The position numbers and the translations under genes were made by a program. 64,000 nt of DNA from Gilliamella sp. wkB171. Its GTDB lineage: Bacteria; Pseudomonadota; Gammaproteobacteria; Enterobacterales; Orbaceae. The stretch is taken from contig NZ_LYST01000053.1 in NCBI RefSeq assembly GCF_001693755.1, positions 1-64,000 of the forward strand, written 5' to 3'. Below the pieces are notes generated by a model. That model saw nothing but the letters and a program-made list of their open reading frames with translations, searched no databases and was not told the origin of the DNA. Below are positions 328 to 25,150 of the stretch, piece by piece. The stretch's first letter is position 1, and every line of letters starts with the position of its first letter.

Positions 328-388
328 TGACAGCTTTAAATTTAACTAAACATTTTGTTGTTTCAGTTTGCTGTCTCAAGGGCTGCGT

Positions 389-417
389 ATACTACGCTAC
401 ACCTTTTTATTCGTCAA
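389..417 (-). promoter_or_regulatory. rrn promoter P2 (proximal)
   Basis: Minus strand: -35 TTGACG (412-417) and -10 TAGTAT (389-394) with a 17-bp spacer. It lies about 210 bp before the 16S 5' end and about 110 bp downstream of a second promoter, the usual P1/P2 tandem layout of enterobacterial rrn operons. Confidence 0.75.
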
Positions 418-498
418 GATCTTTTTTCAATATTTTTGATCTTGCTCTCTAACACCTTCTTCGTTTGTTTTTCACTAACGCCGTGTCAGTGGATGCGC

Positions 499-526
499 AT
501 TATAGGCACTTCATTTTTTTTATCAA
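499..526 (-). promoter_or_regulatory. rrn promoter P1 (distal)
   Basis: Minus strand: -35 TTGATA (521-526) and a perfect -10 TATAAT (499-504) with a 16-bp spacer. A GCGC discriminator follows directly, typical of stringently controlled stable-RNA promoters. An A/T tract lies just upstream, as in an UP element. It sits between the murI stop and the 16S leader. Confidence 0.8.
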
Positions 527-563
527 GCAAAAAAACACGATCTTTTAATTGTTCGAATAAGCT

Positions 564-1391
564 TTAAACACTCAAAACATTAATGCATTGATATCTTTGA
601 AGATTATATTGAGCTAATTTGCTAGTTAATTTTTCGACATACTGGTTAAGTGCTGTGCTAACAATAATATTCTCTTTATTTAGTGATAAATTACTATCAA
701 TCAATTTACCTTCTTTATGAAGTAATTCATAAACACGCACAGCAATTGCATTACCAGAATCAATAAAAGTAGCGTGAGGAAATATTACCTGCAACTCTTC
801 TTTGATAAAAGGATAATGTGTGCACCCCAATACAATAGTATCAGGACAAACCGATAAACTTAGCCAAGGTTGTAATAACTGTTTAAGTTGCAGCATATTA
901 ACTACCACTCCTTGCAGTTTATTCTCTGCAATCTGTGCTAGTTCAGATAGTCCAAGTAATTCGACTTTACAATCAGGTGCAAACTGTTTAATCAAATTGT
1001 TTGTATAGGCTCTTTGAACAGTTGCTTTAGTTGCTAACAGCCCTATACATTTATTTTTAGTCATTTTACTAGCTGGTTTAATAGCTGGCACAACACCAAC
1101 AATCGGAAAAGAAAATTTAGCACGTAAACTAGGTAAACAGATAGTACTTGCGGTATTACAAGCAATAACCGCTAAATCAATAGAATATAATTTGCTAATG
1201 TTATCAATAACATTAATTACTCTATCAATGAGAAACTGTTCTGATTTATCTCCGTAAGGAAACATTTCATTATCAAATGCATAGATATAGTGTAGATTAG
1301 GCATCTTTTTGCAGATTTCATTATAGACAGATAACCCACCGATACCCGAATCAAATATTAATATTGTTGGAGATTGTCTCGCTATGCTCAT
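564..1391 (-). CDS. murI: Glutamate racemase
   Basis: Interconverts L- and D-glutamate in the cytoplasm and supplies D-glutamate for peptidoglycan stem peptides. The 275-residue protein has the family length (E. coli 285). The active-site segment FDSGIGGLSV is at residues 13-22, the first catalytic cysteine is in VIACNTAST (Cys78), and the second is in LGCTHYP (Cys190, with His192). It is transcribed toward the rrn operon, so rrn promoter P1 lies immediately beyond its stop codon. This murI-rrn junction is also found in E. coli. No terminator hairpin is obvious after the stop, so some read-through into rrn is possible. Confidence 0.96.
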   Translation of the reverse strand: MSIARQSPTILIFDSGIGGLSVYNEICKKMPNLHYIYAFDNEMFPYGDKSEQFLIDRVINVIDNISKLYSIDLAVIACNTASTICLPSLRAKFSFPIVGVVPAIKPASKMTKNKCIGLLATKATVQRAYTNNLIKQFAPDCKVELLGLSELAQIAENKLQGVVVNMLQLKQLLQPWLSLSVCPDTIVLGCTHYPFIKEELQVIFPHATFIDSGNAIAVRVYELLHKEGKLIDSNLSLNKENIIVSTALNQYVEKLTSKLAQYNLQRYQCINVLSV

Positions 1392-1497
1392 ATTAAATAA
1401 AGATTAGGAAATTAAATCGACATTATCCTAAATTGAATAAAAATTTATGCAAGTAATTTTATTTAAGGTAATACTGGCTTTTTTACTCATAAATTAT

Positions 1498-1519
1498 TAA
1501 AATAGACGTCTAGATGGTA
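1498..1519 (+). promoter_or_regulatory. Candidate MetJ operator (met boxes) before metK
   Basis: A perfect met-box consensus AGACGTCT occupies 1504-1511, directly followed by the weaker AGATGGTA (1512-1519). MetJ binds at least two tandem 8-bp boxes in Enterobacterales, and metK belongs to that regulon. A possible -10 (TAAAAT, 1498-1503) abuts the perfect box, so a bound repressor would block RNA polymerase. Only one of the two boxes is strong, and no metJ gene is in the window. Confidence 0.5.
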
Positions 1520-1590
1520 AAACTGCTAAATCAGAATACATCTCATCGCATATCAAGTATTGCATTTAATAAGTTAAAAGAAGGTATATC

Positions 1591-2742
1591 ATGTCAGAAT
1601 TTTTATTTACTTCAGAATCTGTTTCAGAAGGTCATCCAGATAAAATCGCCGATCAAATATCTGATGCAGTGCTTGATGCTATTTTAAAACAAGATCCCAA
1701 AGCAAGAGTAGCTTGTGAAACTTACGTAAAGACAGGTATGGCACTCGTTGGTGGAGAAATTACAACATCTGCTTGGGTAGATATTGAAGAGTTGACCCGT
1801 AAAACTATTCATGACATAGGATATACCAGTTCAGAAATGGGTTTTGATGCCAATTCATGTGCGGTACTTAATGCTATTGGTAAACAATCGCCAGACATAA
1901 ATCAAGGTGTCGATCGAAAAGATCCTCTTGAACAAGGTGCAGGCGATCAAGGCATTATGTTCGGCTATGCTACCAATGAAATGCCAAATCTAATGCCAGC
2001 AGCAATTAGTTATGCACATGATTTAATGCGTCGTCAGGCAGAAGTCAGAAAAAATGGCACGCTGCCTTGGTTGCGTCCTGATGCTAAAAGCCAAGTCACA
2101 TTAATTTATCAAGATGGGCAGATAAAAGGAGTTGATACAGTAGTTTTATCAACCCAGCATTCCGAAGGTATTGAACAAAAAACAATACAAGAAGCAGTAA
2201 TGGAAGAAATCATTAAACCAACATTACCTGCCAAATGGTTAACATCAAGAACCAAATATTTTATTAATCCAACAGGCCGATTTGTTATCGGTGGTCCAAT
2301 GGGTGATTGTGGATTAACTGGTCGTAAGATTATTGTCGATACATATGGTGGAGCTGCACGTCATGGTGGAGGCGCATTTTCAGGAAAAGATCCATCTAAA
2401 GTTGACCGTTCAGCTGCATATGCCGCTCGGTACGTTGCTAAAAATATTGTAGCAGCAGGGCTTGCCGATAAGTGTGAATTACAAATATCTTACGCAATAG
2501 GCGTTGCAAATCCAACATCGATTTATGTCAATACTTTTGGCACAGAAAAGATTGATCATGATAAAATAGTGAATTTAATCAAAGAATTTTTTGATTTAAG
2601 ACCTTATGGATTGATTCAAATGCTTGATTTGATTCAGCCAATTTATCAACAAACTGCTAGTTATGGCCATTTTGGTCGTGATATTTTCCCGTGGGAAAAA
2701 ACAGATAAAGCTACATTACTTCGCGATGCCGCAGGATTATAG
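1591..2742 (+). CDS. metK: S-adenosylmethionine synthetase
   Basis: Makes S-adenosylmethionine from methionine and ATP, the methyl donor for reactions that include RlmJ encoded nearby. The 383 residues match E. coli MetK (384). The N-terminal GHPDKIAD carries the ATP-binding His15 and Asp17. The [13 protein letters not shown] signature is near residue 120 and the glycine-rich [15 protein letters not shown] loop near 260-275. An AGAAGG ribosome site precedes the ATG. Its last 17 bp overlap sprT in another frame, so the two are probably translationally coupled. A MetJ-like box upstream suggests repression by SAM-loaded MetJ. Confidence 0.97.
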
Positions 2743-3229
2743 ACGAATACCCATTTCATTACATAATAAAGTCATGGCTTGTTTAAGAGAAAACCTAAGA
2801 CAAGCCAGCCTTATTTTACACACCGCATTTCCTGAACCTAAAGTAATTTATAAAGTTAAAGGAAGTATTGCCGGTAGCGCACTGTTGACACGCTGGGAAA
2901 TACAGCTTAATTCAATAATGTTAACTGACAATGGTGATACATTTATTGATGAAGTCGTCCCTCATGAACTTGCTCATCTACTAGTGTTTAAAACGTTTGG
3001 TAAAGTTAAACCTCATGGCACAGAGTGGCAATATATGATGTCTGAAGTATTGGGTAAATTACCCAAAGTAACCCATAATTTTACAATAAAGCGCAATAGC
3101 TATATGTACCGTTGTAATTGCCAAATCCACCATTTAACTAAAATCAGACATAATAAAATCCAAAACAATAAAACTAGTTATTTATGCCAAAAATGCGGTA
3201 GTATACTTAAACAAGTTATTCCAATTTAG
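2726..3229 (+). CDS. sprT: SprT family zinc metalloprotease-like protein
   Basis: A 167-residue SprT-family protein (E. coli SprT 165). The zinc-metallopeptidase motif HELAH is at residues 80-84. A C-terminal zinc ribbon is suggested by CNC near residue 131 and CQKC near 154. The ATG at 2726 is chosen because the protein then starts [11 protein letters not shown] at family length; a longer reading from 2663 lies wholly inside metK. Function is poorly known, although related SprT-domain proteins act in DNA-protein crosslink repair in eukaryotes. It overlaps metK by 17 bp and precedes an unknown membrane protein by 8 bp, so it looks like part of a metK-sprT-orf-rlmJ unit. Confidence 0.9.
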
Positions 3230-3237
3230 ACCATTAC

Positions 3238-3855
3238 ATGTGTAAACTCGATTTTCATTTTTATAAAAGTTCATTTTTTATTCTTCTCTTAGGTGTTTTT
3301 CTTTATATTTTCGGTAATTTTTATATTCCTCTATATAATGGGTTAACAGTTACACTTATTGAACACCTACAATCTCTCTTTTTATTATTTATGTGTGGTT
3401 ATACGTTTTATTATGCAAAACGCGTACAACATCATGCTACCTTATATAAATTCTGGATTTGGACAATCTTTTGGTGGATTATGCTTTTTGGACGAGGAAT
3501 AAGTTGGGGGCGTGATTTTTATCCTGACGTTCCACGTTTTTATTATAAAATCATTGCAGCTATTGTAATGGGTATACCATTACTGACGACTTTCTTACCA
3601 ACAATCCGCAAAGAAATAGCACGGCGTTATAAATTTGAAAGTATTCCTTTTTGGCATATCTTTTTCGCATTTCTTTTTTTGGGAATTGCAGATATCGCAG
3701 AGCACCATCGTATGGGACACGAATTTTTAGTATTAACTCGAGAACGTAAAGATTTGATTGAAGAATTAATGGAGATTCCTTGCCTGCTCTGTATAGCATT
3801 AACAACTTTCTATATGCAAACAAATGAACAAAAAAGGTTGAGTAAATCATGTTAA
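3238..3855 (+). CDS. Predicted inner-membrane protein of unknown function
   Basis: I do not recognise this 205-residue protein. It is strongly hydrophobic, with about five or six membrane-spanning segments (near residues 12-30, 40-60, 70-85, 100-118, 135-152 and 180-195). A conserved-looking polar patch with ADIAEHHR, RERKDLIEELMEIP and an Arg/Trp-rich loop (GRGISWGRDF) hints at a functional site between helices. It starts 8 bp after sprT, and its stop overlaps the rlmJ start by 7 bp, so it is very probably expressed with both. No signal peptide cleavage site or enzyme motif is evident. Confidence 0.75.
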   Translation: MCKLDFHFYKSSFFILLLGVFLYIFGNFYIPLYNGLTVTLIEHLQSLFLLFMCGYTFYYAKRVQHHATLYKFWIWTIFWWIMLFGRGISWGRDFYPDVPRFYYKIIAAIVMGIPLLTTFLPTIRKEIARRYKFESIPFWHIFFAFLFLGIADIAEHHRMGHEFLVLTRERKDLIEELMEIPCLLCIALTTFYMQTNEQKRLSKSC

Positions 3856-9831: not shown

Positions 9832-9988
9832 ATTTATCAGAAATAATTATGCTAAAAAATTGTGAGCGATTATATCACAAGCAATAGTAATATTCTTACT
9901 TCTGTTTATAAACATGTTTTGTTTGAATTGAAAAAAATAGAAAGAATCTTTTTGATAACTTTGAACGATGAAAAGAATTAAAACTATA

Positions 9989-14490: not shown

Positions 14491-15537
14491 TTATTCGCTC
14501 TTAGGTAGTACGGAAGAAAGGCTGCTTGCAATCTTCTCAGGTATATTGGTTTGGATAGCCAAAATAGCTTGTTCTATTGCTGCAAAGAATGATTTTTGAT
14601 TAGCACTACCATGACTTTTAATCACAATGCTTTGAAGACCAAGCAAACATGCGCCATTATATCGTCCGGGATCTAAATAACCAAAATTTTTAGAAACCTT
14701 TCTTTGTAACCACTTACTTAATAGTTTCATTAATAATGAATTATGACTAATAGATAACTTAAATGAAGACATGAAAATTTTAATTAAACCTTCTACTGTT
14801 TTTAATGTCACATTACCCACAAAGCCATCACAGACTAGTACATCGGTTTTACCAGTTAAAAGCTCGTTACCTTCTAAATAGCCGATATAATTAATATTAT
14901 CATTCGATTTTAAAATCGCTGCTGCAGCGCGTATTTTATCCAAACCTTTTGTATCTTCTTCACCAATATTAAGTAAAGCAACTCTAGGATGATCAATTTT
15001 GAGCACTGTTTTGGCTAAGATCTGCCCCATTATGGCAAATTGCACTAACATATCACTATCACACTGAGCATTAGCGCCTAAATCTAATACTACTGTATTT
15101 TGATTATTTAATGCAGGAATGATGGCAACTAATGCAGGACGATCAATACCAACAAGTGCATGTAATAATAGCTTAGACAGTCCCATTAATGCACCAGTAT
15201 TACCAGCGCTAACGCAAGCTTGAGCTTGGTTATTTTTAACCAATTCTAGTGCTATTCTCATTGATGAGCCATGGCTATGCCGAATGGCATAAGCTGGTTT
15301 CATATCATTAGCAATCACAGATGTTGATTCGATCAACGTAAGTCGATGGTCTTGTTGATATTGCTTAACAAACTTTGCATTTTCTTTAGATAAAAAAAGA
15401 CTAATTTCTGTTGGATCACCCACCAGAAAAATAGAGAGATTTGGATAACAATTTAGTGCTTGTATTGCAGCAGGAACAATCACACGAGGACCAAAGTCCC
15501 CGCTCATAGCATCTAACGCAATGGTTAGATTATCCAA
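14491..15537 (-). CDS. plsX: Phosphate acyltransferase PlsX
   Basis: Converts acyl-ACP to acyl-phosphate, linking fatty-acid synthesis to phospholipid synthesis. The 348-residue protein begins with the typical [12 protein letters not shown]. It also contains [25 protein letters not shown] and a [17 protein letters not shown] segment, all characteristic. It lies 33 bp after rpmF and 4 bp before fabH, the standard gammaproteobacterial order. Confidence 0.95.
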
Positions 15538-15570
15538 AATGTCACCTGAAGATTTCTAATGACTAAATAA

Positions 15571-15738
15571 TTATTTAGAAATCACTTTACGACCACGATA
15601 ATAACCATCAGCGGTTACGTGATGACGTAAATGTGTTTTGCCTGATTCATCAACTGAGATATTAGCAGCAGTTAATGCATCATGAGAACGACGCATACCA
15701 CGTTTTGCACGAGTTTTACGATTCTGTTGAACAGCCAT
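15571..15738 (-). CDS. rpmF: 50S ribosomal protein L32
   Basis: A 55-residue protein read on the minus strand, beginning [20 protein letters not shown] and ending [11 protein letters not shown]. It has the basic N-terminus of L32 (E. coli 57 residues) and lacks the C-terminal zinc-binding cysteines, as in E. coli-type L32. It starts 5 bp after the yceD stop and is followed by plsX, the conserved yceD-rpmF-plsX order. It links ribosome and lipid synthesis in one transcript. Confidence 0.96.
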
Positions 15739-15742
15739 GGAT

Positions 15743-16252
15743 TTACCCCTTATTCTTTAAACTAACTAAAATTGCAAATGGATTCGGCTTTTCATTCTCA
15801 ACAGGAATTTCACCAAATACCATATCTGCCTCTGACACTTCGCAGTGTTTACTATCATGTACCGGCGCAATTGGTAACGAGAGAATAATTTCGTCCTCAA
15901 GTAACGCTAATATATCTACCTCGCCAAACTCGTTCATAAAAACGGGTTCATAATGTTCCGGTAACGTCTCTGCCTGAGCATCGCTCTTAACAGGACTAAA
16001 TTTATTCATCACATGAACTTCAGTGATAAAAGGTTTAAAACAACGTTGACAAATAAGCTCCAACGTTACTTTTGCATCAATTGCGATAACACAAAGTTTC
16101 TGTTCATCGTAATAAAAAGACAAACTACACTCAATATCGCTTTTCAGACTTTCAACCCTTGTTGCACTTTGCGCTGGATAGTATCCAACATAATCAAGTC
16201 GTTTTTGTGCCGCTTTGACAGGGTCAATTGTTAATGGCAATTTATTTTGCAT
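15743..16252 (-). CDS. yceD: YceD family (DUF177) protein, 23S rRNA accumulation
   Basis: The 169 residues align in character with E. coli YceD (173). It starts [21 protein letters not shown], has the paired-cysteine element CQRCFKPF near residue 83, and an acidic C-terminal part ending [13 protein letters not shown]. In plants and bacteria this family is needed for normal 23S rRNA accumulation; the mechanism is unsettled. It is the first gene of the yceD-rpmF-plsX-fab series, and 229 bp of non-coding DNA upstream should hold the operon promoter. Confidence 0.9.
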
Positions 16253-16481
16253 AAGATAAGCTTGCTACCTTGAAAATTATTTTGTGTAGTTAAAAACTAC
16301 ACAATGCCGTAAGGCGCGCATCTTACCTTTAAATGACCATTTCGTCAATGGGCGCAAGTAATATTATTTGTATTAGTTATTGATTATTCCTCTAATATTT
16401 TATCAAATATATTTATTCCAATTTCGTGAAAGGTTTAATATAAAAAATACAATTTTGACTATTAAAAATACCCATGACAGT

Positions 16482-18401
16482 TTAAGACAATCGCCCAAAG
16501 CTATCTTTGACGATAGCTTGGAAATCTTCAAAGGTTTTGCTATTTAATAAACGTTTGGTTGAACGCTCCTTCACTAAATTGACAAACAAATTATAAATTC
16601 GCATCGCATCCTCATATTCATCCTTACTAATTGCTAATAAAAAAATGACGTGTGCAACTTCATTTTTATCCCATAAGATTCCTTGTGGCGCTAATATGGT
16701 TGTCACAACCGTCTTTTTGGCTAACAAACCTACTGAGTGCGGAATAGCAATATTTTCACCTAATAATGTTGAAACAATCGCTTCGCGTTCAATGACAGAA
16801 TGATAAAAAGATGCATCGACATATCCATGCTTTTCTAAACGATGACAAACCACTTTAAAAAGCTCTGATTGTGTTATTGGTTTATCCATGATAAGAAAAA
16901 AATTTTTATCGAAAAAACGCTCGATCAAATGGGGCATTGTTCTATCTATCATAGCCAATCGTCCTAATTGCTCGAGTTGATAGGTAGTTGGAAATGGCGC
17001 TATTTTAACAATCGGCTTATCTTTTTCAGTTAAGCGTACGGTTGAGACAATAAAATCTTCCTCAATATTTGTTAACTGCTCATATTCTCGATAGGAAAGT
17101 ATACGACTAATTTGAATATGTGGAAAATCTCGCTTAATCTTCGATTCAATCATACGTAAAGTTGCATTACCAAGATCGCTCACTAGCAGTATTTGAGCAT
17201 ACCTTTCATGACCTGCACTATAATTACGTTCTAATGCGACACCAATGTGCACAGCCAAATAACTGATCTCATCTTCGGTCATTTTTGATTCGGTATATTT
17301 TTCAGTATTTGCTAGTGCTGATAAGGTAATATCATAAGCAAACGGATAATATTGTTTTATTTCTTGCAATAAAGGATTTGTTGTACGAATTTGATATTTC
17401 ACGCGCGATAGCATCGATGAAACATGAATTGACATATCTTCGAATAATTTTTCATCCTCCAATAAATTATAGTGATAAGTATGATTAATATAAGATAAAA
17501 TATATTTTACAAGAGCTAAACTTTTTGCTTGATTTGGCGAATCAATAATGGTGCGAGACATGATTTGAACACATAAATAATTCAACTCAGCTTGAGAAAG
17601 TACACTACCTAAAAAATAAGAAAACTCTTCAGAAATCTCTTGAGCTGCGCCAATAACAGTACTATTAATCTGATCTATTTGATAATCAATTAACTCATAA
17701 CCTTGCGTAATTCGGCTAATTGAAACAGCACAACTATAAAGTAAATAGCTTTGTCCTTCAGCGTTTAATTTTAATTCAAAACGCTCAATTTGATCTTGCA
17801 ATACCTTTGCTAAATAATCCAACTCAATATCATTTAATATATGTTTTTGAAGTCTACCAATTGTTAAAGTATCTTCCGCCATATATCGTTGCCATAAAAT
17901 ATCGGTTAAACATGCTCGAATGGAAGACTCTTCACCAATTAAACGCATACCATAATAGGGACGGTTTTCTAATTGCAAATTATACTTATCTAAATATTGT
18001 TTAACTTCAATCACATCATTTTGCAACGTACTACGACTTAAAAACCATTTATCAGCAATATCATCTAATTTGACAGAATTAGATTGTGTGAGAAAAGCGA
18101 TTATTAATGCAACTATCCTTTCTTTGCTTGTTCTTGGAATATTTTCTATTGAATGCGAATTAGTTAAAGCTGCATAACGTTTAGCATCAGATATTAGCAG
18201 TTGATAACCAATATTTTTAGTATAATCAATTTGCGCGCCATAATGACGTAAAATATCATTAAGTGCTGAAATGTCAGTACGAATAGTACGAGTAGATACC
18301 GAAAAACGGTTAGCGAGTTCCTGTTGAGGCAGCGTTTCGTTTTTTATGGTATCAAATAAATACGCTAATCGCTGATAAGAAAACAGCACTTTAGATGACA
18401 T
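16482..18401 (-). CDS. PRD/EIIA-containing transcriptional regulator (BglG/MtlR type)
   Basis: A 639-residue modular regulator. The order is an N-terminal HTH (about residues 10-70, LPQQELANRFSVSTRTIRTDI), a second Mga-like HTH (about 85-165), two PTS regulation domains (about 175-395), an EIIB-like stretch (about 400-490) and a C-terminal EIIA domain of the mannitol/fructose class (about 495-635) with the phosphorylatable histidine in IAIPHS (His555). The DNA-binding heads argue for an activator like MtlR or LicR rather than an RNA-binding antiterminator. It starts 3 bp after the KDGP aldolase stop, so it is the last gene of the nine-gene operon and probably controls that operon in response to PTS phosphorylation. 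Confidence 0.9.
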   Translation of the reverse strand: MSSKVLFSYQRLAYLFDTIKNETLPQQELANRFSVSTRTIRTDISALNDILRHYGAQIDYTKNIGYQLLISDAKRYAALTNSHSIENIPRTSKERIVALIIAFLTQSNSVKLDDIADKWFLSRSTLQNDVIEVKQYLDKYNLQLENRPYYGMRLIGEESSIRACLTDILWQRYMAEDTLTIGRLQKHILNDIELDYLAKVLQDQIERFELKLNAEGQSYLLYSCAVSISRITQGYELIDYQIDQINSTVIGAAQEISEEFSYFLGSVLSQAELNYLCVQIMSRTIIDSPNQAKSLALVKYILSYINHTYHYNLLEDEKLFEDMSIHVSSMLSRVKYQIRTTNPLLQEIKQYYPFAYDITLSALANTEKYTESKMTEDEISYLAVHIGVALERNYSAGHERYAQILLVSDLGNATLRMIESKIKRDFPHIQISRILSYREYEQLTNIEEDFIVSTVRLTEKDKPIVKIAPFPTTYQLEQLGRLAMIDRTMPHLIERFFDKNFFLIMDKPITQSELFKVVCHRLEKHGYVDASFYHSVIEREAIVSTLLGENIAIPHSVGLLAKKTVVTTILAPQGILWDKNEVAHVIFLLAISKDEYEDAMRIYNLFVNLVKERSTKRLLNSKTFEDFQAIVKDSFGRLS

Positions 18402-18404
18402 TAT

Positions 18405-19148
18405 TTATCCTACCAATTTTTGTGTAATTGCCAAAAGTTTTTCAACATCAGCAGTGCGCGTTTCTCCTGTCGCTTGATTAATAATAGAACTATAAATATG
18501 TGGGATAATCCTTTTCACACCAGCATCTAAAGCTATCTTCAAAATGACTTCATAGTTATCTAAATCGATTCCCCCTGTGGGCTCGAGATAAAAATCTTGT
18601 TCAGCACAACACTTTGCCACATATTCAAATTCGGCTCGATGTTTTAATCCACCCATTGGAAAAAATTTGATTGAACTTCCGCCCATATCTTTGAGTAACG
18701 CAATTGCTGTTTCAATCGGTACCTCACCCTTGGTAGTTTTACTACTTAACGGGCCAGTAGCAATATTGACCAATCCAATTCTACCCGTTGGTGATACTAA
18801 GCCATTAATCACAGTCTCTTTTTGACCTAACAATGCACGGCTAGTCCCTACACCAGTAAATACTTGATTGACATGTTGCGGTTGAAGAACTGCTGATATT
18901 TCAGATACCATAGTTGACTGATTTGGATCGCCAGCGCCTAAACCAACTGAAATTGCATTATCAATTGCTTGCGCATATTTTTTCATATCGGTTATTGCTG
19001 ATTGATTATCACAATAGTTTTTCGATAAAATACCGACTACAACATGAGTTTGTGCTGCTTCATAAACGGCTTTAGCATTATCAATTGAATTAGCCAGAAC
19101 ATTTAAACAGACACGATCATTATAATAATTAGGTGTCAGTTGCATCAT
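18405..19148 (-). CDS. DgaF-like 2-dehydro-3-deoxy-phosphogluconate (KDGP) aldolase
   Basis: A 247-residue protein of the EF_0839/AHA_3917 family, related to DgaF of the Salmonella D-glucosaminate pathway. The predicted reaction is aldol cleavage of 2-keto-3-deoxy-6-phosphogluconate to pyruvate and glyceraldehyde-3-phosphate. A TIM-barrel fold is likely, with the probable Schiff-base lysine in IKFFPMGG (Lys161), a phosphate-binding GGID segment near 206, and VGLGAGDPNQ near 68-77. The start uses a TAGGAG ribosome site, and its ATGA overlaps the stop of the ammonia-lyase gene. Substrate is inferred from the family and neighbours; an adjacent kinase is lacking, so the substrate probably enters the cell already phosphorylated. 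Confidence 0.85.
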   Translation of the reverse strand: MMQLTPNYYNDRVCLNVLANSIDNAKAVYEAAQTHVVVGILSKNYCDNQSAITDMKKYAQAIDNAISVGLGAGDPNQSTMVSEISAVLQPQHVNQVFTGVGTSRALLGQKETVINGLVSPTGRIGLVNIATGPLSSKTTKGEVPIETAIALLKDMGGSSIKFFPMGGLKHRAEFEYVAKCCAEQDFYLEPTGGIDLDNYEVILKIALDAGVKRIIPHIYSSIINQATGETRTADVEKLLAITQKLVG

Positions 19149-20284
19149 TTTACTCCTAGTATAATACGTTTAATTTTATTATAAATAATGTCAAGTTGAG
19201 CAGAAGTTACACTACGTACATCAACATCAACTTTACCTTCGTTAGCTTTATATTCGCGAAAATAAACAGCAATTTCACCTTGCTTCATTAATTCAACTAT
19301 TTCGATAGCGCTTTTACCTATTACAGTGGCATCAAATGCGATTTCTGTTCGAGCAATATCTCGCCCTGCACTATCCCAAACAACTTTGGCTAATACGCCA
19401 GGTAAAGCATTAAGATTATCAATAAATGGGGCCATTTTACTCACCATTTGCTGACCAGTTTCTTGCTTAGGATCGTTAACATAAAGTTCAATGGCTTTAG
19501 TTAAACCTAAAATACCCTCTTTCCCCACTTTCATTGGGCGTCCAATGCCTTGAGATTGCAGTTTTAACCATTCAATCGCTTGATGACGGCCTATCACTAA
19601 ACCACTAGTCGGTCCTTCAATTGCTTTTGCACCACTATAAATAACTAAATCAGCACCTTGTTGATAATAGGCTTGCAAATCCTCTTCTGCGGCAGCATCA
19701 ACAATCAGAGGTATATTATGTTTTTTGGCAATTAAAGCAGTTTGCGCAACCGTTAACATACTTTTTTGTACACAATGATGAGATTTAACATATAAAATGG
19801 CTGCTGTATCGGCATTAATTAATGATTCGATATGTTCTGGCTTACATTCATTAGCGTAACCTGCCTCTACTACAATGCCGCCACCTAAAGACACCATTGT
19901 ACCAATTGGTGCACCAAAATTGACGTTATGCCCTTTAGGAACAATAATTTCACGGGGTACATATTTATCAGACGAATGGAGATTAAATAATAGATCGTGA
20001 TCATCCTTAATAATAAACCCTGCAACAGCTTGTGCTATACCTGCTGAAGCACATGAAACCACAACCGCACTTTCGACATTGAGTAATTTGGCAATATATT
20101 GCCCTGTTTTATCAACTAAATCTTTGATTTCAAAATATTCGCTTAATCCCTGCGATACCGTATCCACTACTTCAGGTCTTGGTGTTGAAACACCTAATAT
20201 AGTCATACGCCCTGATGCGTTAATGACCTTTTTTAAATGATATTGACTATAAACGTCTTTTTCAGTTTGAGATTCTGAGCGCAT
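19145..20284 (-). CDS. DgaE-like PLP-dependent ammonia-lyase (SelA-related fold)
   Basis: A 379-residue fold-type I PLP enzyme related to selenocysteine synthase SelA and to DgaE, the D-glucosaminate-6-phosphate ammonia-lyase. The internal-aldimine lysine is predicted in VIYSGAKAIEGPTSG (Lys220), with the ring-nitrogen aspartate in LIVDAAAEED (Asp196). The N-terminus LKKVINASGRMTILGVS is typical of this group. Likely role: elimination of ammonia from a 2-amino-2-deoxy sugar acid phosphate, giving the 2-keto-3-deoxy product for the aldolase. An AGAAGG ribosome site supports the start, which lies 23 bp inside the amidohydrolase gene. Confidence 0.87.
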   Translation of the reverse strand: MRSESQTEKDVYSQYHLKKVINASGRMTILGVSTPRPEVVDTVSQGLSEYFEIKDLVDKTGQYIAKLLNVESAVVVSCASAGIAQAVAGFIIKDDHDLLFNLHSSDKYVPREIIVPKGHNVNFGAPIGTMVSLGGGIVVEAGYANECKPEHIESLINADTAAILYVKSHHCVQKSMLTVAQTALIAKKHNIPLIVDAAAEEDLQAYYQQGADLVIYSGAKAIEGPTSGLVIGRHQAIEWLKLQSQGIGRPMKVGKEGILGLTKAIELYVNDPKQETGQQMVSKMAPFIDNLNALPGVLAKVVWDSAGRDIARTEIAFDATVIGKSAIEIVELMKQGEIAVYFREYKANEGKVDVDVRSVTSAQLDIIYNKIKRIILGVK

Positions 20285-21416
20285 TTTTACTACCTTCTTC
20301 TGTTATTTCTATGTATAACGAATGTTTTGTCGTATCAGCAACAATCGATGCTAGAGGCACGAATTGTTCATGACTTTGTCTGACTTCACCGTCTGAATCA
20401 GCTAACTCAATAGCTTGTTGTTTAATATCAAAAACAGTCAAATCAGCATCATAACCAACAGTTAACTTGCCTTTATTTTTAAGACGCAAAACTTGTGCCG
20501 CATTTTGAGTAACACTATCAAGAATTCTTTTTCGGCTATAACCAAGACAAATAAACTTGGTCATTACATTTGCTAAACTAAATACGGGGCCTTGTAAGCG
20601 ATTTTTGGAATAAATGTCGGAACTAATTGTATTAGGATAAATATCCAAGCACTTGGCACGCTCGGCGACAGCAAAGCTAAAGCTTTCTCCACCATGACCA
20701 ATATCTAAAATGACGCCACGTTCAATAGCTCGTTTGATTGAATCTCGCAAATTGTTCTGTTTATCAAATATTTGATTTGGCTTACCATTAAAACAGTGAG
20801 TAATAATATCGCCTTTAGTTAATAAATCGGCAATTTCATCCAGCTCTGGCGGATTATTCCCGACATGAATCATCAGTGGTAAACCGGTTTTTTTCTGCAT
20901 CTCTTTCGCTTTGATTAATGGTAAAATACCATTTTCACCCACCACACTCCGGCTCATCCTAACTTTTATTCCAATAATAAAATGTGGGTATTTAGCTAAA
21001 GTTTTGTCAAATAACGCGACATCAATATCTTGCATATCGGCAAGTTCATTTTGTCTAATTAAACCAATCTTTGAGATATTCAAAAATGAATAAACATGAG
21101 TCTGCGCTTGCTGAGCTAGTTGATAGAACGCATCAACATCAAGTGCGCCAACACTACCTGCATCCACAACAGAAGTTACGCCAGCTTTAACCCCAATTAA
21201 ATCAGGCTCATCATGATAGATGGGTGAACGCGCAAAGCAATGAGTATGAGAGTCGATCCATCCAGCACTGACATAATATTTCTGTTTTAGGTCTAAAATG
21301 CGAATAGTTGGATCTGAAATGACACTGTCTATTTTGACAATTTTTCCTTGATAAATAGCAATGTCGGTTATCGAGTCATCAATTAATATGGCGTTTTTTA
21401 TAATTAAATCATACAT
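20262..21416 (-). CDS. Amidohydrolase/deacetylase family metallohydrolase (EF_0837 type)
   Basis: A 384-residue dihydroorotase-like amidohydrolase. Metal ligands visible are the HTH pair in GWIDSHTHC (His57, His59), a probable carboxylated lysine in IGIKVRMS (near 150), histidines in MIHVGN and THCFNG (near 185 and 208) and an aspartate in SSDIYSKN (near 270). The ATG at 21416 is preferred over the upstream TTG because it begins MYDLIIKNA, the family start. In this operon it most likely removes an N-acyl group or opens a cyclic amide before the ammonia-lyase acts. It overlaps the lyase gene by 23 bp. The exact substrate is unknown. Confidence 0.85.
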   Translation of the reverse strand: MYDLIIKNAILIDDSITDIAIYQGKIVKIDSVISDPTIRILDLKQKYYVSAGWIDSHTHCFARSPIYHDEPDLIGVKAGVTSVVDAGSVGALDVDAFYQLAQQAQTHVYSFLNISKIGLIRQNELADMQDIDVALFDKTLAKYPHFIIGIKVRMSRSVVGENGILPLIKAKEMQKKTGLPLMIHVGNNPPELDEIADLLTKGDIITHCFNGKPNQIFDKQNNLRDSIKRAIERGVILDIGHGGESFSFAVAERAKCLDIYPNTISSDIYSKNRLQGPVFSLANVMTKFICLGYSRKRILDSVTQNAAQVLRLKNKGKLTVGYDADLTVFDIKQQAIELADSDGEVRQSHEQFVPLASIVADTTKHSLYIEITEEGSKNALRISN

Positions 21417-21467
21417 AAGTTGTTCCAAATCCGCTGTAATTTAACTAACTACAGCGGAGAGTTAACA

Positions 21468-22121
21468 TTAGACAATAGGAAATATTCCACCAAAAATCAT
21501 CGCACCTAAAATTGCACCACCAGTGATTGGTTTTTTCCATACATAAAAGAGTAATGCACCCAGTAAAGAACCTATACCAATAGGAATTGAAGCTACCATA
21601 GCTGATAAAATAATCATTGGCCCTAAGAATCGTCCCGATGCATTACCGGCGCCCATCATCACATCAGCACCAAAAGTCGATCCACTGCCACTATTAACAG
21701 TAAATTTTCGGATAAGAATAATAATTGCGCCAATCAATGCACCTAAAACTAATCCAGTCGCTAATGCAGCTAAAAAGTTTTCAACAGGAAAGGTATAACC
21801 GCCCGCTAGCAATAATGCCGGTACACCTAATCCAATACCTGTTTGTAAAGCGCCACCAATGTCTAATATGCCAACTAATGAACCTTCGATAACGCGAGCA
21901 AACAAAAAACTAGCGCCAAATGCTGCAACTGCACCATAATCACCAGTTGTCATTCCTGATTTGAGCATTGCAACAAACGCAATCTCATTAAATGCACCTA
22001 TACCATATACATAAAAAGTATGCGTTCCAGCAAAAATACCTGCTGATAAAAGTCCACAAATAATCGGGAATGACCAATCGGCATACCAAAAACTTTTATT
22101 AATGGTTGTTTGAGTATTCAT
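21468..22121 (-). CDS. DUF4310 family integral membrane protein (EF_0833/AHA_3914 type)
   Basis: A 217-residue, very hydrophobic protein with about six membrane segments and repeated glycine/alanine-rich helices. An N-terminal FWYADWSFPIICGLLSAG and a central GSGSTFGADVMMGAGNASGRFLGP loop look like a ligand or partner contact. It belongs to a family of unknown function that always travels with the next three genes upstream. It is 18 bp after DUF4311 and 51 bp before the amidohydrolase ATG. Inference: one of two membrane subunits of an uptake system for the operon's substrate. No transporter motif of a characterised class is recognisable. Confidence 0.8.
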   Translation of the reverse strand: MNTQTTINKSFWYADWSFPIICGLLSAGIFAGTHTFYVYGIGAFNEIAFVAMLKSGMTTGDYGAVAAFGASFLFARVIEGSLVGILDIGGALQTGIGLGVPALLLAGGYTFPVENFLAALATGLVLGALIGAIIILIRKFTVNSGSGSTFGADVMMGAGNASGRFLGPMIILSAMVASIPIGIGSLLGALLFYVWKKPITGGAILGAMIFGGIFPIV

Positions 22122-22139
22122 AATGTGTTATTCCCTATA

Positions 22140-22895
22140 TTATTTAAACCAATAAGACAGACCATCTCGAAATGAATTTATCATCTTCATATCAAAACCG
22201 CGAAAATAGCCACTCATTACAAATAGAACAATGACCGCGACTAACATAATCTTCATAACACGATTCCAGCCACTGTCATCGACACCTTTACCAATTAGGA
22301 TACCTAAAACTAAGCCCGGTACAGCATTACCCATAATCAATTGCGCAAGTCCACCAAATAATGTCCCCCAAAAACCACTGCGACGACCAGCATCTAACGC
22401 TGCCAACCAAAAGATCACTGGCATTACTGTTGCCACAAGCAGATTTGCCGCAGGGACTAATACTTTCGTCGCTGTAATTTTTAATGAATCAGGAATAACA
22501 GAAGTGGTGGTATTTAAAAATAACACCACTATGACGCCGATAAATGCACAAGCTAATGCCATTTTTTTAGGATCATGTAGCGTTTCGGCAAGATTACGAT
22601 TTTTTATCATCAATAACGATGCTCCCCAGTTGGGAATAATTCGGTGATCGACATCTTGGGTAAAAGAGCCCGCAGCCACTGATGATGCCCATGCATTAAA
22701 AAAGAAACCCAGACCAAATGAGAAATGTGCCGCAGGATCACCTTCACAAGAATTAAGTTCGCCAAGTGTTCGAAAAGCCCCCATGCCTTGATAGGTTGGC
22801 GCATGAAACATTCGAGCCGCCCCCGCACCAACGCCAAAACCACAGAGTCCACCAATAATAATAGACTTTAATGCAATAATTAGAATTTCCATCAT
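22140..22895 (-). CDS. DUF4311 family integral membrane protein (EF_0832/AHA_3913 type)
   Basis: A 251-residue membrane protein with about six or seven predicted helices. A long conserved-looking polar loop after the first helix (ARMFHAPTYQGMGAFRTLG, residues about 27-45, then ELNSCEGDPAAHFSFG) is rich in residues suitable for substrate binding. The C-terminus ends in a short amphipathic segment, GLSYWFK. It lies 17 bp after DUF4312. Its family is known only from this gene cluster. I infer that it pairs with DUF4310 as a two-subunit permease. Confidence 0.8.
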   Translation of the reverse strand: MMEILIIALKSIIIGGLCGFGVGAGAARMFHAPTYQGMGAFRTLGELNSCEGDPAAHFSFGLGFFFNAWASSVAAGSFTQDVDHRIIPNWGASLLMIKNRNLAETLHDPKKMALACAFIGVIVVLFLNTTTSVIPDSLKITATKVLVPAANLLVATVMPVIFWLAALDAGRRSGFWGTLFGGLAQLIMGNAVPGLVLGILIGKGVDDSGWNRVMKIMLVAVIVLFVMSGYFRGFDMKMINSFRDGLSYWFK

Positions 22896-22912
22896 TTCCC
22901 TTATACGTTATG

Positions 22913-23209
22913 TTATTCAGATTTAAATTCAATATCCGCAAGATCAACGAAACTTACATTAACAGAGACATCAAGAGTGACGTCGTAAAGGGTTCTTTTC
23001 CTTGGCAGAAAAACAAACAAAAAGCGCTCAGTGGTTATCATTTGTTTTGCTGATACAACTTGAATATCTTGTGGTTCAATACGTAATACAATATTGCCAA
23101 TATGGTTAAACACCTCTTTTTGAACCTGACTTAATGCTATTGCAAATGCCCGTTGTTTAGATTCACCTTTACCATTTACCCTGACATACAACTGTTGTGT
23201 TTTTTTCAT
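22913..23209 (-). CDS. DUF4312 family protein (EF_0831/AHA_3912 type)
   Basis: A 98-residue soluble protein starting MKKTQQLYVRVNGKGESKQRA. It is predicted mixed alpha/beta, with regular beta-like stretches (QLYVRV, IVLRIEPQDIQVV, ERFLFVFLPRKR, YDVTLDVSVNVSFVD), and has no signal peptide. It is 14 bp from the SFCGS gene and 17 bp from DUF4311, which implies tightly coupled expression with the membrane proteins. Function is unknown; size and place suggest a cytoplasmic accessory subunit of the transport module. Confidence 0.75.
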   Translation of the reverse strand: MKKTQQLYVRVNGKGESKQRAFAIALSQVQKEVFNHIGNIVLRIEPQDIQVVSAKQMITTERFLFVFLPRKRTLYDVTLDVSVNVSFVDLADIEFKSE

Positions 23210-23223
23210 TTTTATCTTCGCAC

Positions 23224-23592
23224 TTATGGACGTGGATATTTTTTCAAAAATGCTTGTGCGATACGCTTGCCAAGCTCTTGTGTATCCATAAAACCAAAAC
23301 CAAGAACTTTACAACCATCATTAATCGCAGTCTCACCTTCTTCTATTGATCGCATACCATGGCGTTGTGAATAGCCATATTTATTTTGTGCAGTAATCGC
23401 ACCAGCGCCGCCGCTGCCACAAAACGATAAGCCTAAATCAGCATGCTCGTTATTCATGACATCACCTAACTTCATATCAGCAGCCATACCAGGAATAACA
23501 ATTGCCCTGCAACCTTCTACAGAGTTAATCCCTTCGGCAATCTTTTGCCCTTTTCCCATTCTATCGCCAATAACAATGACTACTTCAGTCAT
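23224..23592 (-). CDS. Glycine-rich SFCGS family protein (EF_0830/AHA_3911 type)
   Basis: A 122-residue cytoplasmic protein. It opens with a beta strand and a glycine/lysine loop (VIVIGDRMGKGQKIAEGI) and carries the family hallmark SFCGSGGAGAIT around Cys58. The fold looks like a small alpha/beta unit. Its size and single conserved cysteine recall PTS EIIB proteins, which are phosphorylated on a cysteine. That likeness is my inference and not established. It is 14 bp before DUF4312 in the same transcript. Confidence 0.8.
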   Translation of the reverse strand: MTEVVIVIGDRMGKGQKIAEGINSVEGCRAIVIPGMAADMKLGDVMNNEHADLGLSFCGSGGAGAITAQNKYGYSQRHGMRSIEEGETAINDGCKVLGFGFMDTQELGKRIAQAFLKKYPRP

Positions 23593-23637
23593 AATATTTC
23601 TCCTATTAATTATTGTTTTTTATCGTCTAGTAATCTT

Positions 23638-23976
23638 TTAATTCGCTTTAGCCACCTCATAATGCACCGCTAACAAATAGGCCTCTTCCATTGGCAAATT
23701 ATCAAATAATTTTACTGTTCTACGAGCTAGCGCTAATGATTCCTGTGAAAGTTCATCAAATAAGCTCGGATCAACTTCTGGCAATTTTTCAAGTGTTTTG
23801 GCTCGTTGAACCATAGCTTTAACGTGTGAAAGTAACATAGCCTTTTGCACATCATTTTGCGTAATCTGCTGTTCAATCAACCAGCCATTTATAATTTTAA
23901 TAATTTGTGGTGTAACTAATTCTGGTTCAAGATTATCTTCGATCATGCGAAACTTTATTGCTGACATAACAAACAT
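23638..23976 (-). CDS. Small PRD-domain protein (EF_0829/AHA_3910 type)
   Basis: A 112-residue protein that is essentially one PTS regulation domain without a DNA- or RNA-binding part. Histidines fitting PRD phosphorylation sites occur in LLSHVKAM and in the C-terminal LLAVHYEVAKAN. The ATG at 23976 is chosen because GAGAATA precedes it; an open frame extends 15 codons further to 24021, and a second in-frame ATG lies 9 bases downstream. It is the first gene of the nine-gene operon, 45 bp before the SFCGS gene. A free-standing PRD may bind or titrate the PRD/EIIA activator at the other end of the operon; this is inferred. Confidence 0.78.
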   Translation of the reverse strand: MFVMSAIKFRMIEDNLEPELVTPQIIKIINGWLIEQQITQNDVQKAMLLSHVKAMVQRAKTLEKLPEVDPSLFDELSQESLALARRTVKLFDNLPMEEAYLLAVHYEVAKAN

Positions 23977-24262: not shown

Positions 24263-24380
24263 GGATTCCATACTGAAACGTGATTATTTTCTTAAACTTT
24301 TTGATAATGTTTTTTATTCTTTAGGATTTCGGCCGTTAGTAGTTTGGTGATTTTTTCTTTTCAGTGCAAACGCCCGAGTA
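24263..24380 (+). repeat. Left arm of a long imperfect inverted repeat
   Basis: Pairs with the reverse complement of 25027-25150. It holds a 24-bp identical block (24292-24315), then a run identical except for two bases across CGGCCGTTAGTAGTTTGGT. The outer 29 bp and inner 18 bp match more loosely. The right arm has a 7-bp insertion between the two strong blocks. Confidence 0.85.
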
Positions 24381-25026: not shown

Positions 25027-25150
25027 TTACTTGGGAGTTTTCACCGAAAAGAAAAAATAACCAAACTACTAACGGCCGAAAACCTAAAGAACAAAAATCA
25101 AAAAACATTATCAAAAAGTTTAAGGAAATTGATACGTTTTAGTATCGGAT
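25027..25150 (-). repeat. Right arm of a long imperfect inverted repeat
   Basis: Reverse complement of the 24263-24380 arm. It ends about 10 bp before the stop codon of the TPM-domain gene at 25161, so transcripts of that gene would run into the repeat. Confidence 0.85.

Follow-up and report, generated by a model that had tools for sequence, protein, structure and literature searches.

A widespread nine-gene operon of Gilliamella sp. wkB171 that may import, phosphorylate and degrade an N-acetylated amino-sugar acid

Gene content of the operon

The window analyzed here is a 64,000-nucleotide (nt) stretch of Gilliamella sp. wkB171 (contig NZ_LYST01000053.1, positions 1 to 64,000), whose minus strand carries, from 23976 to 16482, an operon of nine genes with gaps of 3-51 nt between neighbours and overlaps at the amidohydrolase/DgaE (23 nt) and DgaE/DgaF (4 nt) junctions. 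The upstream half encodes a stand-alone PRD protein (23638-23976; TIGR03582, 116 bits against a cut-off of 69), the SFCGS protein (23224-23592; TIGR03577, PF14272), a small DUF4312 protein (22913-23209; TIGR03578 and Pfam DUF4312), and two membrane-type proteins proposed as translocator subunits, DUF4311 (22140-22895; TIGR03580 and Pfam DUF4311) and DUF4310 (21468-22121; TIGR03579 and Pfam DUF4310). These are followed by an amidohydrolase/deacetylase of the EF_0837 type (20262-21416; TIGR03583, 513.7 bits, cut-off 432), a DgaE-family pyridoxal phosphate (PLP) ammonia-lyase (19145-20284; TIGR01437, 562.9 bits, cut-off 385), a DgaF-family 2-keto-3-deoxygluconate-6-phosphate (KDGP) aldolase (18405-19148; TIGR03581, 394 bits, cut-off 222) that also passes the KDGP aldolase equivalog NF047796 (387.5 bits, cut-off 300), and a transcriptional regulator of the Mga/PRD/EIIA_2 type (16482-18401; PRD, PTS_EIIA_2, Mga and HTH_11 above the Pfam cut-off). 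The amidohydrolase start, ATG at 21416, was picked by homology; the listed open reading frame (ORF) begins at TTG 21428.

Eight of the nine proteins exceed NCBIfam curated cut-offs (7/7 of TIGR03577-TIGR03583, plus TIGR01437), and the Pfam families above cut-off are DUF4310, DUF4311, DUF4312, SFCGS, KDGP_aldolase, PRD, EIIA_2 and Mga; the small PRD protein has no Pfam match, and its assignment rests on TIGR03582. With best single-gene E-values down to 2e-169 and the gene set repeated in 106 loci, the match is far beyond chance. A first-pass annotation made from the sequence had listed nine minus-strand genes in this order, which the seven TIGR families, TIGR01437 and the Mga/PRD/EIIA regulator bear out.

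Since the families bear the TIGRFAM names of the cluster, the set as such is already known. The EF_0829-EF_0839 / AHA_3910-AHA_3917 cluster, whose AHA tags are those of Aeromonas hydrophila, holds the same families as the window, all above cut-off, and its Enterococcus faecalis record adds an EIIC, a small protein, MupG and a kinase. In the literature searched, which covered few papers of subscription journals, we found no direct biochemistry of the cluster and none of the names DUF4310, DUF4311 or DUF4312, and matches to SFCGS were unrelated acronyms. The cluster itself is known, but that literature gives no role for it, in agreement with the first-pass view that no substrate has been assigned. 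A possible contribution to fitness has been noted for EF0839 and EF2975 as putative amino-sugar aldolases (PMC7701990), and a urine-induced E. faecalis clone held the promoter of EF_0839 or EF_2975, the genes being identical (PMC2912369).

Conservation, distribution and loss

The comparison covered 106 loci, each 6 kb or longer and gathered with DUF4311 as bait, so that linkage is measured from the DUF4311 side only; the set includes near-duplicates (L014/L015, L017/L018, and L033 with L146, apparently one genome) and loci cut by contig ends (e.g., L020, L023, L037, L062, L085, L087), where an absent gene may lie outside. The four transport-type genes (DUF4310, DUF4311, DUF4312 and SFCGS) are present in 106/106 loci, with matched genes sharing one strand; the amidohydrolase, DgaE and the regulator each occur in 104 loci and DgaF in 98, and 95 keep all eight core genes, supporting the earlier claim that the gene set recurs as a unit. 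The small PRD gene was located by tblastn in 92/106 loci, and in most of the remaining Bacilli loci a small ORF at the same position aligns with both of its His motifs.

Departures from this pattern include an Aeromonas caviae locus (L016), where a deletion near 9836 joins the interior of DUF4310 to DgaF and the amidohydrolase and lyase are gone. DgaF is missing from L085, from five Xenorhabdus loci and from L137, and no TIGR03581 match was found anywhere in the four Xenorhabdus genomes searched or in the L137 genome (G731); L037 and L046 are without the regulator. Locus L144 holds the transport genes, PRD and regulator only, with amidohydrolase-DgaE-DgaF on another contig of its genome, G478. 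The first-pass annotation had held that transport genes unlinked from the enzymes would refute its pathway; we see this in one genome, G478, and at some loci the enzymes are accompanied by permeases of other types, cases that inform the mechanism and do not refute the pathway.

Single loci show further variation. In the E. faecalis locus L013, DgaF appears at 15498-16225 as two unannotated tblastn pieces in different frames and so is frame-broken in this record. Locus L140 carries the amidohydrolase and transport genes as a tandem duplicate, the second copy being followed by DgaE and DgaF, and L145 has a CesT chaperone-type gene and an ORF of 587 amino acids (aa) without a Pfam match between DgaF and the regulator (14619-16834, oriented). 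On the Bartonella HY761 plasmid (L018, 121-7085), the annotation shows two sets of replication and partition genes, inversely ordered, immediately ahead of the operon, a doubling that could be real or an assembly effect.

DUF4311 was detected in 22/60 relatives, including 20/35 of the same genus, in 27/348 Bacilli genomes (taking as Bacilli the class of a Lactobacillales metagenome-assembled genome), and in 1/369 genomes of a wide class-level draw, the sole one being the window's own genome. A scan of named genomes returned at least 498 DUF4311 relatives, from which 80 loci were kept; the closest named locus among the matches listed, L019 from an uncultured Gilliamella, shares 99% identity in DUF4311. 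A plasmid collection yielded six DUF4311 records, adding Klebsiella, A. caviae, E. faecalis and Bartonella, and DUF4311 was not found in the viral contigs searched. The cluster is old and widespread and not peculiar to bees, with carriers among Enterobacterales, Chromobacterium, Iodobacter and Bacilli and on Bartonella plasmids. This range, together with the absence of DUF4311 from 15/35 genomes of the genus and the traces of loss described below, makes weak the first-pass argument that presence in a probable gut symbiont suggests a host- or diet-derived substrate.

Among 13 Gilliamella genomes without the operon, 11 have both window flanks within one 3.5-kb stretch; the right flank is represented in L223 by a window segment farther away and was not found in L226. 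Operon fragments remain at the same site in three of the 13 (L214, L218 and L219, from genomes G027, G030 and G022), evidence of recurrent loss, so that the patchiness is due at least partly to loss.

Catabolic enzymes

The three enzymes make up a variant of the Salmonella dga route for D-glucosaminate (DgaABCDEF; PMC4987338, which also reviews the control of dga by DgaR). The two systems have in common DgaE/DgaF-type enzymes, PRD-based control and, probably, a phosphorylated substrate. The window operon differs in having neither a Man-family EIIABCD nor a sigma-54 LevR-type activator, and in carrying an extra deacetylase and four DUF proteins in place of the permease of the phosphotransferase system (PTS).

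For conservation, identical proteins were merged and only sequences of 80-125% of the window protein length were kept, leaving 102 of 104 distinct DgaE and 100 of 102 distinct amidohydrolase sequences, each plus the window protein. In the Salmonella D-glucosaminate-6-phosphate ammonia-lyase (DGL), a phosphate site of Arg301, Arg332 and Arg346 was placed by manual docking and His163 was named as proton donor (PMC9529869). These residues align to Arg312, Arg343, Arg357 and His170 of the window lyase, which are invariant in 103/103 sequences, as is the PLP lysine, Lys220. Because the phosphate-site Arg triad is invariant, the lyase substrate is, judging from the alignment, probably phosphorylated. 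The amidohydrolase metal site HxH/K/H/H/D is likewise complete (His56, His58, Lys150, His183, His206, Asp266) in 101/101 sequences. Enzymes of COG3964 reportedly act on acetyl-(R)-mandelate and weakly on N-acetyl-D-serine, and D-glucosaminate has the D-amino acid configuration at C2. Together with the DgaF equivalog score, the lyase and metal sites uphold the dga analogy and the acylated amino-sugar acid 6-phosphate of the first-pass annotation. Solved relatives include 8wzy, 2ics and 2ogj for the amidohydrolase and 3m0z for the aldolase. In a Listeria record (L231), a distant DgaF homologue stands with ascorbate-type PTS, phosphotriesterase, creatininase-family and sugar-isomerase-domain genes, which is another use of this aldolase family.

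Kinase genes and permease type

The operon has no kinase gene, though its lyase appears to need a phosphorylated substrate, and we compared loci in which the same enzymes accompany other permeases. Comparators free of the DUF4310/DUF4311/DUF4312 families (DUF43xx) came from 13 plasmid records with a DgaF match and from G478; the 13 comprise six with DUF43xx or the A. caviae remnant, two with a Man-type PTS, three that were used, and two Listeria records without DgaE, one of them inspected. A further 206 records with an amidohydrolase match were mostly distant Rhizobium copies, and the one opened had no DgaE or DgaF beside the amidohydrolase.

The gene orders found were amidohydrolase-DgaE-DgaF-sugar kinase-GntR-gluconate symporter in Priestia (L230), EIIB-EIIA-GntR-EIIC-MupG-amidohydrolase-DgaE-DgaF-sugar kinase in Clostridioides difficile (L228), EIIC-MupG-amidohydrolase-DgaE-DgaF-kinase with an EIIB piece upstream in Niallia (L233, by tblastn without annotation), and GntR-EIIC-small protein-MupG-amidohydrolase-DgaE-DgaF-PfkB in G478 (L211). 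Ahead of this last set lie two more amidohydrolase genes (377-3408), one with an adenine-deaminase C-terminal domain. A Bacillus cereus cassette with GntP, 2-keto-3-deoxygluconate (KDG) kinase, amidohydrolase, aldolase and a PLP enzyme has been described, with a gluconate derivative such as D-glucosaminate as suggested substrate (PMC4896439).

A PfkB-type kinase is thus present in 4/4 amidohydrolase-DgaE-DgaF loci without DUF43xx and in 1/106 DUF43xx loci. The one is E. faecalis L013; EIIC and MupG are encoded there as well, and by that route the acid would be set free without phosphate. Two near-identical Lacticaseibacillus paracasei plasmids carry dga with a Man-type EIIABCD, with kinase in 0/2 and amidohydrolase in 0/2. 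The association of kinase with permease type gives a Fisher p of 9e-7 overall and 5e-4 within Firmicutes (4/4 vs 1/20), from loci that are not independent. In a family-blind check, an extra ORF of at least 220 aa fell within the operon span in only 20/106 loci: 17 with a lactonase, L013, L091 (opposite strand) and L145 (the 587-aa ORF). Because the operon is without a kinase, the four unknown proteins probably carry out the phosphorylation; most simply, DUF43xx would add phosphate to the compound that it brings in.

Phosphotransferase partners

The regulator, composed of HTH_11, Mga, PRD and EIIA_2 with no sigma-54 domain match in Pfam, carries the EIIA-type His motif AIPH, as read by eye. Its EIIA domain is recognized by Pfam in the window and in Bartonella, and the motif was seen by eye in four further Gram-negative loci; the E. 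faecalis regulator has no EIIA domain by Pfam, and the Firmicute C-termini inspected resemble a PRD-like stretch.

General PTS proteins also lie within the operon in some loci. The gene for HPr comes right after DgaF, in the same orientation, in seven Bacilli loci (L128, L130, L132, L133, L134, L135, L141), with enzyme I (EI) beside it in L132 and L134, and both Bartonella plasmids have an HPr-EI fusion gene after the regulator. HPr is thereby part of the operon in 9/106 loci and EI in 4 of these 9, the calls being made with Pfam on L017, L130 and L132 and by tblastn elsewhere. Opposite-strand HPr matches beside L016, L064, L066, L073, L079, L087 and L093 were left out of these counts; several, judging from ORF sizes, presumably belong to the npr-rapZ-ptsN chromosomal region. 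In Gilliamella sp. wkB171, matches to ptsH and ptsI are adjacent on the same contig, just past the window (66168, 66478). We consider the transport half to be probably PTS-dependent.

Transport-type proteins

Cys58 of SFCGS is invariant (33/33 aligned). The protein matches TIGR02133 below its cut-off (hmmscan, E 7e-5, 22.7 bits, cut-off 168), and against a 12-sequence RpiB/LacAB set hhalign gave 76% (E 2.2e-5, 68 columns), with six controls under 1%, making SFCGS, at the level of profile similarity, a probable distant relative of the RpiB/LacAB family. The small PRD protein retains two PRD histidines in all 29 homologues aligned, and the DUF4312 alignment shows no conserved His or Cys. AlphaFold models of DUF4311 (poor, predicted local distance difference test (pLDDT) 62.3) and DUF4310 (moderate, pLDDT 73.6) are all helical and too poor to rely on. 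Four Man-PTS chains in the VIA-align list of DUF4311 (9wjw_F, 8hfs_C, 7xtg_D, 9wju_S; Z 4.2, 3.9, 3.0, 2.8) scored within noise, equalled by many unrelated membrane proteins, and were not used. Comparison of DUF4310, DUF4311, DUF4312 and SFCGS with Man-type EIIC and EIID by hhalign was negative, with a method that also failed to detect EIIC against EIID. When solved structures were searched by sequence, neither SFCGS, as a single sequence or as a profile, nor the DUF4310 and DUF4311 profiles gave a significant match.

Clues to the substrate

Four clues point to an N-acetylated aldonate as the substrate. The amidohydrolase is present in 104/106 DUF43xx loci as against 0/2 Man-PTS dga loci. A 7-bladed lactonase, related to 6-phosphogluconolactonase and below the cut-off of that model, lies between DgaF and the regulator in 17/106 loci; its N-terminus is signal-like in 10/17 by a rough hydrophobicity criterion that varies with the start chosen, as would be expected of an oxidised sugar taken up in lactone form. 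An EIIC of the lactose/cellobiose family and MupG/GH170 are further members of the E. faecalis locus and of three other Firmicute loci; the associated EIIC proteins are above cut-off for TIGR00410 and match the chitobiose model NF007634 only far below cut-off. In L137, DgaE is followed after about 300 nt by an EIIC and a YdjC-like gene.

In L. paracasei, the GH170 enzyme ChbE and a cellobiose-type EIIC are required for use of diacetylchitobiose, and the chb cluster has EIIC, a small protein and GH170 adjacent, as in the E. faecalis version of our operon (PMC12791066). As described there, chb comprises ChbR, PTS components, ChbD (DUF3284) and ChbE, with no amidohydrolase, DgaE or DgaF; the small protein of the E. 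faecalis-type operon has no Pfam match. MupG, the founding GH170 enzyme, acts on N-acetylmuramic acid 6-phosphate-N-acetylglucosamine (MurNAc-6P-GlcNAc; PMC6262408) and is called the sole biochemically characterised member of its family (PMC12791066).

C1 oxidation of chitin yields N-acetyl-D-glucosaminate (GlcNAc1A) and oligomers, and the marine ong pathway uses GlcNAc1A without prior phosphorylation (PMC9537276). The substrate we propose is the same, with deacetylation, deamination and KDG-6-phosphate in common. The ong enzymes, in contrast, work on the unphosphorylated acid with the sodium/solute symporter-family (SSS) transporter OngIT, OngB (subtype V), OngC and KdgK (PMC9537276). In the window operon phosphorylation would come first, the amidohydrolase is of another subtype and the lyase is of DgaE type; by NCBIfam and Pfam, neither SSS transporter nor KdgK families occur among the nine window proteins.

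Proposed pathway and alternatives

We propose, with a probability of about 0.5, that the operon serves to break down an N-acetylated amino-sugar acid that is phosphorylated first, the best candidate being GlcNAc1A, the product of chitin-cleaving lytic polysaccharide monooxygenases (LPMOs). DUF4310 and DUF4311 would form the membrane pore, served from the cytoplasmic side by DUF4312, SFCGS and the lone PRD protein, and the acid would be phosphorylated at C6 on entry at the expense of phosphoenolpyruvate via EI and HPr. The EF_0837-type amidohydrolase may then remove the acetyl group, giving D-glucosaminate-6-phosphate and releasing acetate. From this presumed substrate the DgaE-like lyase, whose family and active site are evident, would yield KDG-6-phosphate and ammonia, and the DgaF-like aldolase, as its family suggests, pyruvate and glyceraldehyde-3-phosphate. 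The Mga/PRD/EIIA protein, and perhaps the lone PRD, would tie expression to the phosphorylation state of the system.

The transport half may be a new permease class. Tentatively, we suggest that DUF4310, DUF4311, DUF4312, SFCGS and the stand-alone PRD form a PTS permease unrelated to the EIIC superfamilies known so far. HPr would hand its phosphate to the PRD His, from where it would move to SFCGS Cys58 and finally, at the DUF4310/DUF4311 pore, to an N-acetylated aldonate; with the three enzymes, this permease would make up a phosphorylation-first counterpart of ong. The relay through the PRD His and Cys58, in which SFCGS would act like an EIIB, is speculation. If true, DUF4310, DUF4311, DUF4312, SFCGS and TIGR03582 gain one joint job, the PTS gains a permease class, and the use of oxidised chitin ends by LPMO bacteria without ong genes could be explained, e.g., in two Aeromonas with LPMOs and with OngB/OngC distant or absent (PMC11653859).

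Several observations weigh against the phosphorylation-first proposal. No EIIA, EIIB or EIIC domain was recognised in the four transport-type proteins by NCBIfam or Pfam, and no fold match was found for the (poor) DUF4310 and DUF4311 models, with no Foldseek hit below E 0.001 and a VIA-align Z of at most 5.8. An EI domain is present in 56/58 operon genomes searched, yet the model used, PF05524, matches nitrogen-type EI too, so that an EI match is no proof of a sugar PTS, and 2/58 (G437, a metagenome-assembled genome, and G449, whose regulator is frame-broken near a contig end) are without EI and without HPr. The kinase count covers only PfkB-type kinases beyond the operon span, in loci that end within about 10 kb. 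The lyase fails the DGL equivalog NF047797 (372 bits, cut-off 600), and since DgaE falls below this cut-off the sugar may differ from D-glucosaminate. OngB, the marine GlcNAc1A deacetylase, is a subtype V amidohydrolase with a Cys ligand (PMC12017989), which the window enzyme, with its His/Lys/Asp set and no Cys ligand, is not. LPMO genes occur in 0/8 Orbaceae genomes tested; in Gilliamella, use of such acids would rely on their production by other organisms. Outside Bacilli, LPMOs are found in 21/49 operon genomes, the eight Orbaceae included, vs 7/22 same-order operon-free genomes (p 0.44, no enrichment).

LPMO co-occurrence had been tried as a substrate test and was not decisive: within Bacilli it reaches 16/26 genomes with the operon vs 1/31 without (p 1e-6), a contrast confounded by clade and genome size.

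The strongest competitor, which we still hold to be rather unlikely, is that the four unknown proteins form an ion-coupled importer with a kinase such as KdgK encoded elsewhere, EI and HPr serving only to set the phosphorylation of the PRD regulators. With PRD and EIIA domains in the regulator, HPr and EI would be required even if transport involved no phosphorylation; the two genomes without both proteins fit, and the searches made showed no resemblance of either membrane protein to a PTS EIIC. This model must, however, account for the kinase being encoded at the locus in all four cases with other permeases and in one of 106 with DUF43xx, and it requires recruitment of an off-operon kinase in every lineage.

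Unlikely to a further degree is the same scheme with a different N-acylated amino-sugar acid, which could be N-acetyl-galactosaminate, a muramic-type acid from peptidoglycan, or a form with an N-glycolyl, formyl or lactam group. The activity of MupG on MurNAc-6P-GlcNAc (PMC6262408), the DgaE score below the DGL equivalog cut-off and the lack of LPMOs in the Orbaceae tested would suit it; against it stand the DgaF equivalog match, the lactose/cellobiose family of the associated EIIC, and the EIIC-small protein-GH170 order that resembles the diacetylchitobiose cluster (PMC12791066).

We think it improbable that the substrate is free D-glucosaminate, as in Salmonella dga, with the amidohydrolase an accessory enzyme removing an ester or lactone. 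Homology of the enzymes to DgaE and DgaF favours this option, as does the preference of COG3964 enzymes, which reportedly (Ornelas 2013) hydrolyse O-acetyl-(R)-mandelate far better than N-acetyl-D-serine; the amidohydrolase is, however, kept in nearly all DUF43xx loci (104/106) and missing from both Man-PTS dga loci, and 17 loci have a separate lactonase. That SFCGS is an RpiB/LacAB-type aldose-ketose isomerase and no transport component is equally doubtful: it has distant RpiB similarity including a Cys-Gly-Ser/Thr-Gly motif, but it stays with the transport genes where the locus has no enzymes (L144), a dga-type route needs no isomerisation, and Arg occupies the position of RpiB His10.

Set beside the phosphorylation-first proposal, the gene identities and the dga analogy of the first-pass annotation hold up, and its inference of a host- or diet-derived substrate is weak; the absent kinase, the HPr and EI genes within operons, and the exchange of permease together with a kinase had escaped it.

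Sequence features around the operon

The operon is flanked by a LemA/TPM-type pair on one side and yceD-plsX-fabH-type genes on the other. Terminator-like sites number 11 vs 5.7 in shuffled sequence; promoter-like sites (36 vs 37.1 in shuffles) show no excess and were not used as evidence. Rfam gave no match above the gathering score, and ARAGORN found no tRNA. A terminator-like hairpin of 10 pairs, by consensus match only, lies at 16304-16282 on the minus strand, about 180 nt past the regulator stop and before yceD. Upstream of the operon, a 73-nt inverted repeat (89%) has arms at 24308-24380 and 25028-25100, 647 nt apart, and looks like a small mobile-element relic; it contains two sub-threshold TwoAYGGAY matches, and a 70-nt piece of it is found again in L019.

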